Below, piece after piece: positions 33,779 to 59,172 of a DNA stretch of 64,000 bases; positions within the stretch are counted from its first letter, which is position 1; every line of letters begins with the position of its first letter. A model generated the notes under the pieces. It did no database searches, had not been told where the DNA came from, and saw only the letters and a list, made by a program, of their open reading frames with translations. Origin of the DNA: Acinetobacter sp. 10FS3-1 (GTDB taxonomy: Bacteria > Pseudomonadota > Gammaproteobacteria > Pseudomonadales > Moraxellaceae); contig NZ_CP039143.1 in the NCBI RefSeq assembly GCF_013343215.1, positions 310,001 to 374,000 on the forward strand, given 5' to 3'. Position numbers and translations under genes: made by a program.

Positions 33779-33854
33779 TGGTGGGTCGTCCGCGATTCGA
33801 ACGCGGGACCAACGGATTAAAAGTCCGCTGCTCTACCGACTGAGCTAACGACCC
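33779..33854 (-). tRNA. tRNA-Lys (TTT), copy 3 in transcription order
   Basis: 76 bases including encoded CCA. Acceptor GGGTCGT pairs with ACGACCC. The anticodon loop CTTTTAA gives anticodon TTT. The T-arm GTTCGAATC is canonical. It is identical to the two copies upstream. Confidence 0.95.
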
Positions 33855-33910
33855 ATTCAAGATATTGCTTTAAAAGCGAAAAGAGCTTCGTATCAGAAGC
33901 CTTTAAAAGA

Positions 33911-33986
33911 TGGTGGGTCGTCCGCGATTCGAACGCGGGACCAACGGATTAAAAGTCCGCTGCTCTACCGACTGAGCTAACGACCC
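33911..33986 (-). tRNA. tRNA-Lys (TTT), copy 2
   Basis: Identical 76-base gene with encoded CCA, separated by 56 bases from copy 3 and 23 bases from copy 1. All three are probably processed from one transcript. Confidence 0.95.
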
Positions 33987-34009
33987 ATCTCTAGGTACAT
34001 CAAAATAAA

Positions 34010-34085
34010 TGGTGGGTCGTCCGCGATTCGAACGCGGGACCAACGGATTAAAAGTCCGCTGCTCTACCGACTGAGCTAACGACCC
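34010..34085 (-). tRNA. tRNA-Lys (TTT), copy 1
   Basis: First copy of the tandem array in transcription order, identical to the others, including anticodon TTT and 3' CCA. Confidence 0.95.
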
Positions 34086-40569: not shown

Positions 40570-41538
40570 ATGAATTCTACGCAACAATGGCAAAGTGTCA
40601 CTTGGTTTGAAGTGGATGAGCACCAGGATGGTCAGCGAATCGATAATTTCCTGTTTAGTCGTCTGAAAGGCGTGCCCAAAAGCCGTATCTATCGCTTGAT
40701 TCGGGAAGGCCAGGTTCGTGTGAATAAAAAACGGATTAAGGCAGAAACCAAACTTTCGATTGGGGATCAAATTCGTGTAGCACCGATCCGTTATGAGCAG
40801 AAAGATGAAACTGCAGCGCCCGTCTCCGACAAGGTCGCTCAAGGTCTGTTGGCCCGTGTGATTTATGAAGATGAAGGCTTAATGGTGGTGAACAAGCCTT
40901 CCGGTATTGCCGTACATGGCGGTAGTGGTGTGGCCTATGGCCTGATAGAGGGGTTACGTGCTGCAACCGGGAAAAAATATCTGGAGCTGATTCATCGTAT
41001 TGACCGTGACACTTCCGGCTTGGTGATGATTTCTAAAAAACGGAGCACTTTAAAAACCCTGCAAGACCTGCTGCGAGAACATAAAATTCACAAGACCTAT
41101 GCTGCGGTGGTCAAAGGCCAGGTGAGTCTGGACAAGCAGTTGATTGATGCCCCTTTGTATCGTTATGAGCTGCCAAATGGCGAACGTCGCGTGCGGGTGT
41201 CTAAAGAAGGCAAAGAGTCCAAAACCCAGTGGAATGTGCAAGAGCGCTTTATGCATGCCACATTGGTCTATGCCTCTCCGCTGTCGGGGCGTACCCACCA
41301 GATCCGTGTGCATGGTTTTAGTATTGGTCATCCTTTGGTGGGGGATGAAAAATATGGTCACGAAACCGAATATAGAGGACCTAAACCACGCCGTTTGTGC
41401 TTGCATGCCATGCGTCTGGATATTCCAGGCTATCCGACAATTGAGGCGCCCTTGCCTGAAGATATGCAAAGTCTGGTGGCGCAGCTCAGAGTGCAGAAGG
41501 CGGATAAGCTGGTCACACTTGCCGAAGATGAAGAGTAA
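40570..41538 (+). CDS. rluC: 23S rRNA pseudouridine synthase RluC-type
   Basis: 322 residues. An N-terminal S4 RNA-binding domain (about 18-80: RIDNFLFSRLKGVPKSRIYRLIREGQVRVN in parts) precedes the RluA-family catalytic domain. The catalytic Asp is in HRIDRDTSGLVMISK at about 141-155, and SGRTHQIRVHGFSIGHPLVGDEKYG (in parts) closes the active site. RluC modifies positions 955, 2504 and 2580 of 23S rRNA in E. coli. The divergent rne-rluC pairing supports rluC over rluD. Confidence 0.92.
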   Translation: MNSTQQWQSVTWFEVDEHQDGQRIDNFLFSRLKGVPKSRIYRLIREGQVRVNKKRIKAETKLSIGDQIRVAPIRYEQKDETAAPVSDKVAQGLLARVIYEDEGLMVVNKPSGIAVHGGSGVAYGLIEGLRAATGKKYLELIHRIDRDTSGLVMISKKRSTLKTLQDLLREHKIHKTYAAVVKGQVSLDKQLIDAPLYRYELPNGERRVRVSKEGKESKTQWNVQERFMHATLVYASPLSGRTHQIRVHGFSIGHPLVGDEKYGHETEYRGPKPRRLCLHAMRLDIPGYPTIEAPLPEDMQSLVAQLRVQKADKLVTLAEDEE

Positions 41539-41645: not shown

Positions 41646-41737
41646 GGGCGACATGGATGTCGCCGTTACTCTGTGGTACAAGGACGTGCCATCAGAGTAA
41701 CAAAGGATTTTTGCTACTTTTCATCCTTGAAAAGTAG
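41646..41737 (+). repeat. Three-hairpin structured intergenic element, copy 1
   Basis: Hairpin I GGCGAC/GTCGCC (41647-41652, 41659-41664; loop ATGGAT). Hairpin II GTTACTCTG/CAGAGTAAC (41665-41673, 41693-41701) with inner TGGTAC/GTGCCA, a bulged T (41692) and loop AAGGAC. A linker AAAGGATTTTTG follows. Hairpin III CTACTTTTCA/TGAAAAGTAG (41714-41723, 41728-41737; loop TCCT). The same layout with different stem bases is on the minus strand at 58098-58189. Function unknown. Confidence 0.75.
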
Positions 41738-41800
41738 ATAATACCTATACGAAAACAGCTGCTCACTGACATTAATTGTGGTAGTGAATTAAATTTAACT

Positions 41801-41838
41801 AACCTCTCCCAAACCCTCTCCTAGAAGGAGAGGGCTTA
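41801..41838. repeat. REP-like CCCTCTCC palindrome
   Basis: CCCTCTCCT (41814-41822) pairs with AGGAGAGGG (41826-41834); a second CCTCTCCC at 41803-41810 can compete for the same arm. Similar C/T-rich palindromes are common dispersed elements in gammaproteobacterial intergenic DNA. No U-tract follows. It lies just upstream of the HAD gene. Confidence 0.55.
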
Positions 41839-41868: not shown

Positions 41869-42537
41869 ATGAACTCACCTGTAAAACTGGTTATTTTTGA
41901 TTGGGATGGCACCTTATTCGATTCAGTCGGTCAGATTGTGGCAAGTCTCCAGTTTGCAGCCCAGCAATTTAATCAGCCGCTGACCGATGCCGATGCCAAA
42001 AGTATTATCGGTCTGGGTTTGCCTGAAGTTGCCCAGCGTCTGTTTCCGACAGTGCCAGAATTACATAGCGATATTTTACAGGCTTATTCTGAACATTATG
42101 TGGCGAACTCTACTGAAGATTGCTGGTTCGCTGGTGTGGCGGAGATGTTACAAGAGCTGGCAGAGCAGGGCGTAAAACTGGCGGTCGCGACCGGAAAAAG
42201 CCGTAAAGGGCTGGATCGGGTCCTAAAGCAAACCGAGAGTGTCGAGCTGTTTGCAGTTACCCGCGCGGCCAGTGAAACCCGCTCCAAACCTGATCCGCTG
42301 ATGCTGGCTGAGATTCTGTCTGAAACTGGTGTGGCGTCGCATGAGGCGATTATGGTGGGAGATACCTCCTATGACCTGGAGATGGCACAGAAGATTGCGA
42401 TGCCGAGTGTGGGGGTGAGTTATGGCGTGCATACGCCTGAAACGCTGGCACAGTTTAATCCCTTGACCATCGTGCATGATATTCGCAGCCTGAATAGCTT
42501 TTTATTGGCTAAAGTTCAATGGAAAGAAGCGATTTAA
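41869..42537 (+). CDS. HAD-superfamily hydrolase, phosphoglycolate-phosphatase-like
   Basis: 222 residues. HAD motif I FDWDGTLFDS at about 9-18 carries the two aspartates. Motif II threonine is in LAVATGKSRKGLD, motif III lysine near ETRSKPDP and motif IV in MVGDTSYDLEMA. A helical cap lies between motifs I and II, which makes it subfamily IA, as in Gph. Phosphoglycolate phosphatase or another small phosphate-ester phosphatase is likely; substrate not certain. In Acinetobacter-type genomes such a gene commonly follows rluC. Confidence 0.85.
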   Translation: MNSPVKLVIFDWDGTLFDSVGQIVASLQFAAQQFNQPLTDADAKSIIGLGLPEVAQRLFPTVPELHSDILQAYSEHYVANSTEDCWFAGVAEMLQELAEQGVKLAVATGKSRKGLDRVLKQTESVELFAVTRAASETRSKPDPLMLAEILSETGVASHEAIMVGDTSYDLEMAQKIAMPSVGVSYGVHTPETLAQFNPLTIVHDIRSLNSFLLAKVQWKEAI

Positions 42538-56741: not shown

Positions 56742-57971
56742 ATGAGCAACATCGAAAGCATCGTGATTGTAGGCGCAGGCCAGGCAGGTGCAAGCGCGAT
56801 TTTAGAACTGCGTGGCAACAAGTTTGAAGGCAACATCATTCTGATTGGTGATGAAATACATCTGCCTTATGAACGTCCACCACTGTCTAAAGACGTGATT
56901 CTAAAACCTGAAGAAACCAAAATTGAAATCCTGTCCGAAGAAAAACTGGCAGATTTGGGTGTCGAGCATATCCGCGGCAATGGCGTGGTGAAAATCAATG
57001 CTGAAGCGCACACGGTTGAGCTGCAAAATGGTGACGTTGTTGCTTATGACAAGCTCTTGCTGGCCACCGGTGGTGCAGCACGCCGTTTGCCAAACTTCGA
57101 TGCCTTAGGCAAGCACGTCTACACTTTGCGTAATCTGGAAGATTCACAAGCGCTGGTGCCTGTATTACAGCCGGGTCGCCGTATCATCCTGATCGGTGGT
57201 GGCGTGATCGGTCTGGAACTGGCCTCCAGTGCTCGCTTCAAAGACTGCGAAGTGACTGTGATTGAAATGGGTCCAATGGTCATGGGGCGTTCATCTCCAC
57301 GTATATTGAGCGAGTTTTTATTGGCCCAGCAGCGTCTGGCTGGGGTCAATGTGCGTCTTGAAACCAAGATTGCAGACTGCCGTCTTGAAGGTGAAGAAGT
57401 TGTCGTTACTCTTGAAGGTGGTGAAGAGCTGCGTGCTGATGCAGTTGTTTACGGTATCGGGATTGTGCCAAATGCACAGCTGGCGCTTGATGCCGGTTTA
57501 GCGGTGGATTGTGCGATTCAGGTGAATGAACACTGTCAAACGTCTCATCCTGATATTTATGCTGCAGGCGATGTAGCGACCCAGCTGCGTGACTGTGGCA
57601 ATCATCGCCGTGTCGAAACCTGGGAAAATGCCAATCTGCAAGCCGGAATTTTTGCCCGTCATGTGATGGGGCTCGAGCAGCCAACCCCTAATCCGGCGTG
57701 GTTCTGGACCGATCAGCTCAATATCAACTACCAGTTCGTGGGTGATATGACAGCAAGCGAGTGGGTTGTACGTGGTGAAATGAATGCCGAGCAGGGGGCT
57801 GATTCATCCTTTGTATTGTTTGGTGTCACAGATGGCATCATCGTCGGTGGCATCACGGTGAATGCGGCCAAAGACATGCGTCATCTGAAAAAACTGATCA
57901 GCAAGCAGGCGGCTTTTGAGGCGGATAAATATCTGGATTTAAGCCAGGATTTGCGTAAGCTGGTGAAGTAA
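56742..57971 (+). CDS. hcaD: Dioxygenase ferredoxin-NAD reductase
   Basis: 409 residues. A FAD enzyme that passes electrons from NADH to HcaC. The FAD motif IVIVGAGQAGASAILEL begins at residue 7, the NAD motif IILIGGGVIGLELAS at about 148-162, and the second FAD site is IYAAGDVATQL. LPYERPPLSKDV is typical of this BphG/HcaD/rubredoxin-reductase group. Four bases separate it from mhpB. It is the last gene of the operon, followed by a terminator. Confidence 0.92.
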   Translation: MSNIESIVIVGAGQAGASAILELRGNKFEGNIILIGDEIHLPYERPPLSKDVILKPEETKIEILSEEKLADLGVEHIRGNGVVKINAEAHTVELQNGDVVAYDKLLLATGGAARRLPNFDALGKHVYTLRNLEDSQALVPVLQPGRRIILIGGGVIGLELASSARFKDCEVTVIEMGPMVMGRSSPRILSEFLLAQQRLAGVNVRLETKIADCRLEGEEVVVTLEGGEELRADAVVYGIGIVPNAQLALDAGLAVDCAIQVNEHCQTSHPDIYAAGDVATQLRDCGNHRRVETWENANLQAGIFARHVMGLEQPTPNPAWFWTDQLNINYQFVGDMTASEWVVRGEMNAEQGADSSFVLFGVTDGIIVGGITVNAAKDMRHLKKLISKQAAFEADKYLDLSQDLRKLVK

Positions 57972-57985
57972 GCTGAATGTTTAAC

Positions 57986-58022
57986 AAAGGCAGATCTTGG
58001 GGAACTGGGGTCTGCTTTTTTT
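57986..58022 (+). terminator. Terminator of the hcaEFCB-mhpB-hcaD operon
   Basis: Stem GCAGATC (57990-57996) with GGTCTGC (58009-58015), one T-G wobble, followed by seven T. The A-run before it also pairs with the T-run. Confidence 0.75.
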
Positions 58023-58097
58023 ATGGCTACTTTATTTATTGTTTTGGCATGACCACTATTTATATTGCGACGTTTAATTACTTTGTGCAGTTGTGTC

Positions 58098-58189
58098 TTA
58101 CTTTTCAAAGATGAAAAGTAACAAAAATCTTTTGAGCGTTTGAGGATACTTCCTTGTATCCCAAACGCTCGAGCGGCATCCATGCCGCT
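58098..58189 (-). repeat. Three-hairpin structured intergenic element, copy 2
   Basis: Read on the minus strand: hairpin I AGCGGC/GCCGCT with loop ATGGAT; hairpin II GAGCGTTTG/CAAACGCTC with inner GGATAC/GTATCC, a bulged T and loop AAGGAA; linker AAAAGATTTTTG; hairpin III TTACTTTTCA/TGAAAAGTAA with loop TCTT. It has the same order, loop motifs and bulge as 41646-41737, but different stem bases that keep pairing. It lies between the hca terminator and the EamA gene. Confidence 0.75.
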
Positions 58190-58263
58190 TGTAATACTGC
58201 TAATCGTGGATTTGAACAGAACTTTTGGTTTAATTCTTTTTATTATATTTAATTGAGTCATTT

Positions 58264-59172
58264 ATGAATTCAAATTCATCTTCTATGCTGGTGACGGCAA
58301 GTATATATGCGCTTTTGGTGCTGATCTGGGCAGCGACGCCGCTGGCGATTGTCTGGAGTGTGGCGGAGGTGCATCCGATGTGGGTGCTGATTATCCGCTA
58401 TTTTGGTGCCTCCATCATTGCGCTGCTAGTGCTCAAGCTGATGCGCGGTCCATTACCTTTTGACCGGACCTCGATGCAAAGCTATCTGGCCGGAAGCTTG
58501 AATTTAATTGGCGCCCAGCTGTTTATTTATCTGGCTGCCAACTATTTAACCTCAGGTCTGATGGCCCTGATTTTTGGATTCTCACCGCTGATTGCCGGCT
58601 TGATCGGGCATGTGATTTTAAAAACCCATCGGCTGGTATGGCTGCAATGGCTGGGAATGGCGGTTGCGGTAGCTGGCCTGAGTTTTGTCTTTGCCGATTC
58701 GGCAGATTCAAAAATTAACCCGTGGGGCGTGGTCCTGATGCTGATCAGTATGGTGTCGTATATCAGTTCGATTTTCTGGGTCAAACAGATTAATGCACCG
58801 CTAAAACCAATGTCGCAAGCCACCGGTTCATTATTGGTGTCTGCGGCAGGTTCACTGTTGTTAATCCCGTTTATCTGGCAGCATTTTCCCACACAGATGC
58901 CAGGTACCCATGCCATGATCGGGTTCCTGTTTACCATGATCATGTCATCAATTGTGGCCATGCTGTGCTATTTCTGGCTGATCCGCCGTCTGGCTGCGTC
59001 TACCGTCTCTTTAAGTAATGTAATGACCCCGGTGATTGCCTTGGTGTTGGGAGCCACACTTAACAATGAAATTATTAGCAGTCATGCTTTCGCCGGAATT
59101 GCGGTGGTGATGTTGGGCATTGTCATGTATTTCTGGAAAGAATGGCGCGAACAGTATTTTTCCAGAACTTAG
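58264..59172 (+). CDS. EamA-family (DMT) transporter
   Basis: 302 residues with ten hydrophobic helices in two EamA repeats (about 10-135 and 150-290). Visible motifs are LIWAATPLAIVWSVAEVHP at the start, a LGMAVAVAGLSFVFAD end of the first repeat and LSNVMTPVIALVLGATLNNE in the second. Most such proteins export metabolites or amino acids. Its place directly behind the catabolic operon is not strong evidence of a link, because a terminator and the structured repeat lie between. Confidence 0.85.
   Translation: MNSNSSSMLVTASIYALLVLIWAATPLAIVWSVAEVHPMWVLIIRYFGASIIALLVLKLMRGPLPFDRTSMQSYLAGSLNLIGAQLFIYLAANYLTSGLMALIFGFSPLIAGLIGHVILKTHRLVWLQWLGMAVAVAGLSFVFADSADSKINPWGVVLMLISMVSYISSIFWVKQINAPLKPMSQATGSLLVSAAGSLLLIPFIWQHFPTQMPGTHAMIGFLFTMIMSSIVAMLCYFWLIRRLAASTVSLSNVMTPVIALVLGATLNNEIISSHAFAGIAVVMLGIVMYFWKEWREQYFSRT

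Follow-up and report, generated by a model that had tools for sequence, protein, structure and literature searches.

What kind of element occupies two intergenic gaps in Acinetobacter sp. 10FS3-1, and on which molecule does selection act there? The window (the whole stretch of 64,000 nucleotides that was analyzed) comes from a host genome of 3.65 Mb. An earlier note on it had described the same order of three hairpins at 41646 to 41737 and, on the other strand, at 58098 to 58189, and had proposed either a mobile REP-like element or a structured RNA family of the genus. The sequences confirmed both copies and their common order. Both also folded as claimed, with z scores of −7.75 to −8.30 against dinucleotide shuffles for the two copies on either strand and with none of 200 shuffles equal to them.

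Copy 1 is on the forward strand between a pseudouridine synthase gene (40570 to 41538) and a gene for an HAD-like hydrolase (41869 to 42537), both forward. Copy 2 is on the reverse strand between two forward genes, one for a reductase (56742 to 57971) and one for an EamA transporter (58264 to 59172). A reverse-strand open reading frame of 126 amino acids (57881 to 58261) overlaps copy 2; it matches no Pfam family and is unlikely to be a gene. The parts of both copies are collected in Table 1. A second dispersed repeat (CTCTCCCAAACCCTCTCCTAGAAGGAGAGGG) lies 3' of copy 1 at 41804 to 41834, and pieces of it are present in other genomes of the genus, sometimes alongside the three-hairpin element. 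Elsewhere in the window, three consecutive tRNA genes with equal scores occupy 33782 to 34085 on the reverse strand.

Table 1. Parts of the two copies, in window coordinates. The consensus given for the 3' tail comes from the downstream sequence of 45 site representatives.
Feature	Position	Strand	Description	Basis
Copy 1 hairpin I	41647-41664	+	Loop (A)TGGA(T), CsrA-type GGA	Sequence, fold, pairs
Copy 1 hairpin II	41665-41701	+	Bulged T at 41692; loop AAGGAC at 41680-41685	Fold, pairs
Copy 1 linker between hairpins II and III		+	AAAGGATTTTTG	
Copy 1 pseudoknot strand S1a	41703-41708	+	AAGGAT, complement of 41723-41728	Family covariation
Copy 1 crossing loop L1	41709-41713	+	TTTTG	T-run conserved
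Copy 1 hairpin III	41714-41737	+	Stem S2 CTACTTTTC/GAAAAGTAG; loop ATCCTT at 41723-41728 = S1b	
Copy 1 presumed 3' tail	41738-41790 (end approximate)	+	Near TGCCTATACAAA ... AGGCnnTG	Weak family consensus
Copy 2 hairpin I	58189-58172	−	Loop (A)TGGA(T)	Sequence, fold
Copy 2 hairpin II	58170-58134	−	Bulged T at 58143; loop AAGGAA at 58150-58155	Fold
Copy 2 linker between hairpins II and III		−	AAAAGATTTTTG	
Copy 2 pseudoknot strand S1a	58127-58132	−	AAAGAT, complement of 58107-58112	Family covariation
Copy 2 crossing loop L1	58122-58126	−	TTTTG	Sequence
Copy 2 hairpin III	58121-58098	−	Loop ATCTTT at 58107-58112 = S1b	Fold

A loose pattern search of genus genomes gave a match in 56 of 119, with three matches for the reversed control pattern; inspection by eye indicated that at least three of the matching genomes are chance cases (L021, L031, and the G019 match). 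From 27 nonredundant copies, 20 were aligned and used to build a covariance model. The search of the host and related genomes that the earlier note had suggested was run with this model and found further copies. The element is shared as described, but not by two copies only: the host genome holds nine model matches, seven above 60 bits and two weak. In a same-family sample, with at most 26 candidates scored per genome, 39 of 149 genomes had a match at E 0.01 or better. Genus genomes in the sample matched in 31 of 41 cases with up to 13 matches each, in keeping with a structured family of the genus, and one A. baumannii record had eight. In three other genera of the family, eight genomes had weak matches (best E, 8.1e-6). 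The fetched loci comprised 157 matches, 150 of them distinct, and 141 were kept after nine weak or wrong-strand ones were removed. Since many Acinetobacter genomes carry copies and the knotted part also occurs in distantly related bacteria (see below), the scattered element is a genuine structured one that has been under-described, rather than a repeat produced by chance.

Pairing was maintained while the stems changed. In the 20-copy alignment, the named pairs were formed in 98.0% of cells, a flattering value because the seven copies outside the alignment include ones with an odd hairpin III, compared to 81.1% in shuffles. Changes on both sides were seen in 22 of 36 pairs, compared to 13.4 in shuffles, and none of 500 shuffles reached either value. 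When the partner was shifted by one to three columns, pairing fell to 36 to 48%. At several positions of stem II, every one of the four Watson-Crick pair types occurs, and stem III is almost invariant except for its outermost and innermost pairs.

The same was seen when copies at orthologous sites (32 groups) were compared. There, 499 pair cells had changed on both sides, compared to 63.6 expected under independence, in a test that used 199 of 200 ortholog pairs, not independent of each other, with alignments fitted to the structure and some groups fusing adjacent inverted copies. Pairing was kept in 484 of these double changes and lost in 15; one-sided changes kept it in 168 cases and lost it in 79. 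Copy 1 and its ortholog in another genus genome (L148, G197) differ at three pairs, all of which remain paired. The double changes suggest selection in place or conversion, and such rapid paired drift of the stems makes orthologous sites a good natural test of structure-based selection. Among 58 site representatives, there were 31 G-U pairs and 9 A-C mismatches, an excess that favors the named strand as the functional one. Taken together, covariation across copies bore out both the compensatory stem changes and the idea of selection on a folded single strand as opposed to simple duplication, and we take the structure, pseudoknot included, to be shown by covariation, which is seen in all four helices.

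The fourth of these helices adds a pseudoknot between the linker and the loop of hairpin III and makes the element larger than first described. Hairpin III stands as such, but its loop, previously given as TCCT or TCTT, is better drawn as the six bases ATCCTT or ATCTTT, which are complementary to the linker. The linker before the T-run and the loop read AAAGGAT/ATCCTT in copy 1 and AAAAGAT/ATCTTT in copy 2, and other copies have AAAAGGT/ACCTTT, AAAGAC/GTCTTT, GGGG/CCCC, TGAG/CTCA, or TGCA/TGCA. For 57 linker/loop types, parsed from 134 of 141 copies and including some that pair over 2 or 3 bases only, the mean longest Watson-Crick run was 4.44, compared to 3.50 with the loops shuffled (0 of 2,000 shuffles). 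Seven copies (L010, L024, L027, and similar ones) are without loop III. Where an extra hairpin is inserted before S1b, the complement is kept in L009, L022, and L153 and not clearly in L011. Comparison of the copies thus shows a 3' H-type pseudoknot composed of the linker (S1a) and the hairpin III loop (S1b), with stem III as S2.

The crossing loop of this pseudoknot is a conserved T4-5(G) stretch. It would cross stem III beside the T4/A4 part, which allows for U·A-U triples; the case for a triple helix is one of geometry, because nearly all of stem III is conserved, beyond its U-A part. Telomerase RNA contains an H-type triple-helix pseudoknot with a U-rich loop 1. The U-rich loop 1 of the element would similarly lie alongside the A strand of stem 2 in parallel orientation, whereas its triples are predicted ones and its function is unrelated as far as known.

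What could such an RNA bind? The loops of hairpins I and II have the form N-GGA-N, which we take to be that of a CsrA/RsmA site. In 108 copies (loci L035 and later, six BLAST-led and the rest from the model), we looked on the 5' side of the linker for hairpins with a GGA loop. Such hairpins occur in 106 copies, two in 72 and one in 34, compared to 73 of 1,849 control windows, which at 160 bases were longer; the copy counts are biased upward, since the search patterns and the model themselves carry GGA. Loops were parsed in 136 of 141 copies in all, with some loops II misassigned by the script. A six-base loop II was parsed in 63 copies; of these, 63, 59, and 62 have the G, G, and A, respectively, and the neighboring bases vary. 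The GGA can be lost with the stems kept, as in loop II of L055, L056, L058, and L127 (TGAAC or AGAAC) and loop I of L066 (TAGAT). In copy 1, the GGAs of hairpins I and II are 27 nucleotides apart. We found csrA in all 41 genus genomes, the 10 with no element match among them, and once in the host genome. N-GGA-N hairpin loops and csrA, the two features looked for in a CsrA-binding RNA, thus occur in the same genome, and CsrA binding is the best-supported function predicted for the element.

Our main reading, to which we give a probability of roughly 0.58, is that the element is a dispersed intergenic, putative CsrA-binding RNA, capped by a pseudoknot and related to the TwoAYGGAY family. It draws on the two hairpins, the second with a drifting stem that keeps its pairing, and on the N-GGA-N loops of most copies. 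The element would act as RNA on the named strand, with a CsrA dimer bound to hairpins I and II. The U-run would occupy the deep groove of stem III along its U4-A4 part, forming U·A-U triples, and the pseudoknot may protect the RNA or set where it ends on the 3' side. Overall, the element would titrate CsrA, or recruit it locally, on transcripts that stop within the intergenic gap or extend across it. Its spread would be by a route other than RayT.

CsrB/CsrC and RsmX/RsmY/RsmZ carry GGA hairpin loops at several sites per RNA. The element resembles them in its GGA hairpin loops and differs in having two GGA hairpins only, a 3' pseudoknot, and a dispersed distribution over varying sites. Could it still be a stand-alone CsrA-sponge sRNA gene of the RsmY/RsmZ/CsrB kind, present in several copies? 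Such a gene would fit the GGA hairpins, the presence of csrA in all 41 genus genomes, and Rfam clan CL00106, which includes both CsrB and TwoAYGGAY. However, consensus scans for promoter- or terminator-like sites, limited to the consensus types scanned, were at chance level in both window copies, our script finds at most two GGA hairpins, and both sites and orientation vary, so we consider this reading quite improbable. A stand-alone sRNA with its own promoter and terminator was set aside, as the scans gave no signal.

The closest described family is TwoAYGGAY (RF01731), predicted to bind CsrA according to a passage of PMC4333381. It led the Rfam matches at copy 2. At copy 1 it had the top bit score, with a lower E-value for an unrelated short family. 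Its scores of 24.7 (copy 1) and 26.8 bits (copy 2) are below the gathering cutoff of 43, and there was no match above the cutoff in the whole host genome. The window copies resemble TwoAYGGAY in their two consecutive GGA-loop hairpins. They differ in loop II, which is AAGGAC or AAGGAA and not AYGGAY (loop I is ATGGAT, and GGA is kept in both), and in the bulged T of stem II. The Rfam model also includes an outer stem and shows no pseudoknot in its structure line; copy 1 fits the outer stem only with many nonstandard pairs, and copy 2 matched the two-hairpin core only. The element is therefore a relative of TwoAYGGAY with a common 3' domain and, by score and loop II, not a member. We recognized no description of the repeat or its sequence among the literature matches listed.

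We also looked for the element beyond the family. A scan of named genomes (TGGATG and then TTTTGGTTACTTTTG) returned 39 stretches, several of which look like chance, with nine in Acinetobacter, four in Pseudomonas, and others in Sphingobacterium, Saprospiraceae, and Parcubacteria. Whole-genome counts of the 3' module, for which the reversed control gave 0, were 25 in S. mizutaii, 11 in P. mediterranea, and 33 in P. kilonensis, and among metagenome-assembled genomes (MAGs) 13 in Parcubacteria, 7 in Saprospiraceae, and 2 in Bacillota. The Parcubacteria genome with 13 copies is very small (0.8 Mb). In the 31 linker/loop types of these relatives, which are related within one genome and in some cases pair over 2 or 3 bases only, the complement was 4.06 compared to 3.13 (0 of 5,000). 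P. kilonensis and P. mediterranea gave four TwoAYGGAY matches (two loci) of 47 to 60.7 bits, above the cutoff of 43, and the 3' pseudoknot module directly adjoins all four, each match lying on its 5' side. No Rfam family covered the 3' module in seven loci tested at E 0.1.

The 5' part of these relatives varied with csrA. Three csrA copies were found in each of P. kilonensis and P. mediterranea, and none in the other four of the six module-bearing genomes, several of which are incomplete. Upstream GGA hairpins were present in 12 of 12 and 8 of 8 distinct upstreams in the two Pseudomonas genomes, compared to 0 of 7, 0 of 6, 0 of 10, and 1 of 2 in the four genomes where csrA was not found. Among single copies in genomes outside the csrA comparison, Pseudomonas KBW05 had a GGA hairpin; by the same test, it was absent from Pseudomonas REP124 (whose copy pairs poorly), a second Sphingobacterium, a Buchananbacteria MAG, and a viral contig. 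The pseudoknot is therefore separable from CsrA, being also present in genomes that yielded no csrA. In a genome of another genus of the family (G125; L184 and L190), we observed a 3' pseudoknot AAAGAC/GTCTTT with GGA hairpins absent by eye.

Tentatively, these relatives may form a superfamily across phyla, made up of dispersed RNA elements with a common U-rich, possibly triple-helical 3' pseudoknot and an exchangeable 5' part. Bacteria with CsrA would have CsrA-binding hairpins as the 5' part, so that the elements plug into the CsrA system of the host; without CsrA, other sequences would replace the hairpins, and TwoAYGGAY would be the previously seen 5' part. If the readings proposed here are true, one pseudoknot recurs as dispersed repeats in several phyla, TwoAYGGAY is extended by a 3' domain, and Acinetobacter gains a whole family of candidate CsrA-antagonist RNAs, of which none described for the genus appeared among the literature matches listed. 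Four points go beyond the earlier note: the pairing of linker and loop III into a pseudoknot, the loops of CsrA type, the kinship with TwoAYGGAY, and the occurrence of the 3' module well outside the genus.

With genes taken from a simple ORF script and orthologs counted separately, 50 of the 108 copies lie between converging genes, one between diverging genes, and one in an ORF. Between genes of the same direction, 38 copies are antisense and 18 sense; because the antisense copies outnumber the sense ones, many copies are not sense 3' untranslated regions. The 3' side faces the 3' end of a gene in 88 of 107 intergenic copies. Transcription or mRNA 3'-end punctuation, with the element as a stabilizer or terminator between converging genes and without a role for CsrA, would explain the 50 of 107 convergent placements, this 3' bias, and a 3' module present where no csrA was found. 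It would leave the conserved N-GGA-N loops unexplained and runs against the negative terminator scan, and we regard it as unlikely.

Comparison of sites indicated that sites gain or lose copies or have them turned over, for the most part close to the 3' ends of genes. At the rluC-HAD site of copy 1, there was no model match in G009 and G023, the sampled genomes with the most similar flanks, and a copy in the opposite orientation was found in G011, G012, G013, and G016. Copies at aqpZ and crcB-HopJ have opposite orientations in other species and A. baumannii; for crcB-HopJ, the alignment matched the element and not the flanks, and the orientation was taken from separate comparisons. At the yaaA and acnA sites, other species have a copy, and in A. 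baumannii there is no match and different DNA takes the place. Close inverted pairs, with starts about 130 to 180 bases apart, were seen at L152, L167, L175, and L063. We found no clean empty site or target duplication at the sites compared, where the element ends are only roughly bounded.

Mobile-like behavior, which had been part of the original REP-like proposal, is therefore seen in the dispersal and the varying sites. The RayT-type partner that had been suggested is not: of the genus genomes, 7 of the 31 that carry the element and 5 of the 10 that lack it have Y1_Tnp proteins, and we rejected a RayT/REP partner as the driver because Y1_Tnp is not associated with the element. Like REP/REPIN sequences with their RAYT, the element is dispersed, palindromic, extragenic, and sometimes in inverted pairs. 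Unlike them, it is longer, has three hairpins and a pseudoknot, and is without a RAYT association. The base of its stem II is mostly GTT and not a GTAG or CGTC tag, as the tags are given in the title of PMC3733652.

A selfish, non-autonomous DNA element (REP- or MITE-like) would have its folded strand read by a DNA transposase or the replication machinery, with the RNA-like features incidental. It would account for several dispersed copies per genome, close inverted pairs, opposite orientations at the same site (rluC-HAD, aqpZ, and crcB-HopJ), sites where one species has a copy and another lacks it (yaaA and acnA), and just 1 of 107 intergenic copies between divergent genes. We consider it somewhat unlikely, given the Y1_Tnp counts and the failure to find a clean empty site or target duplication at the sites compared. 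In addition, GGA loops and csrA go together across the six genomes compared, apart from a single copy in a MAG where csrA was not found, the strand-specific G-U excess fits RNA, although single-stranded DNA allows G-T as well, and the double changes at orthologous sites point to selection in place or conversion. A putative CsrA-binding RNA thus remains our preferred reading.

An integron attC-like site, prompted by the GTT...AAC base of hairpin II, was discarded: the order is opposite to what we take to be that of attC, and the bases are variable. Between inverted Pseudomonas copies, no shared gene cargo was seen by eye in the ORF listing; in P. mediterranea, a C4 antisense RNA with an a1/b1 target lies between two inverted element copies (L273, 1596 to 1797). 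Plasmid matches came from six records, three of them of chromosome size. The eight matches in the phage collection were all named "Acinetobacter phage MD-2021a" and were taken as host sequence, and the exact 3' module had one viral-contig match. Among the genus genomes, the one with the copy 1 ortholog (G197) had 23 Y1_Tnp matches, most with identical scores.
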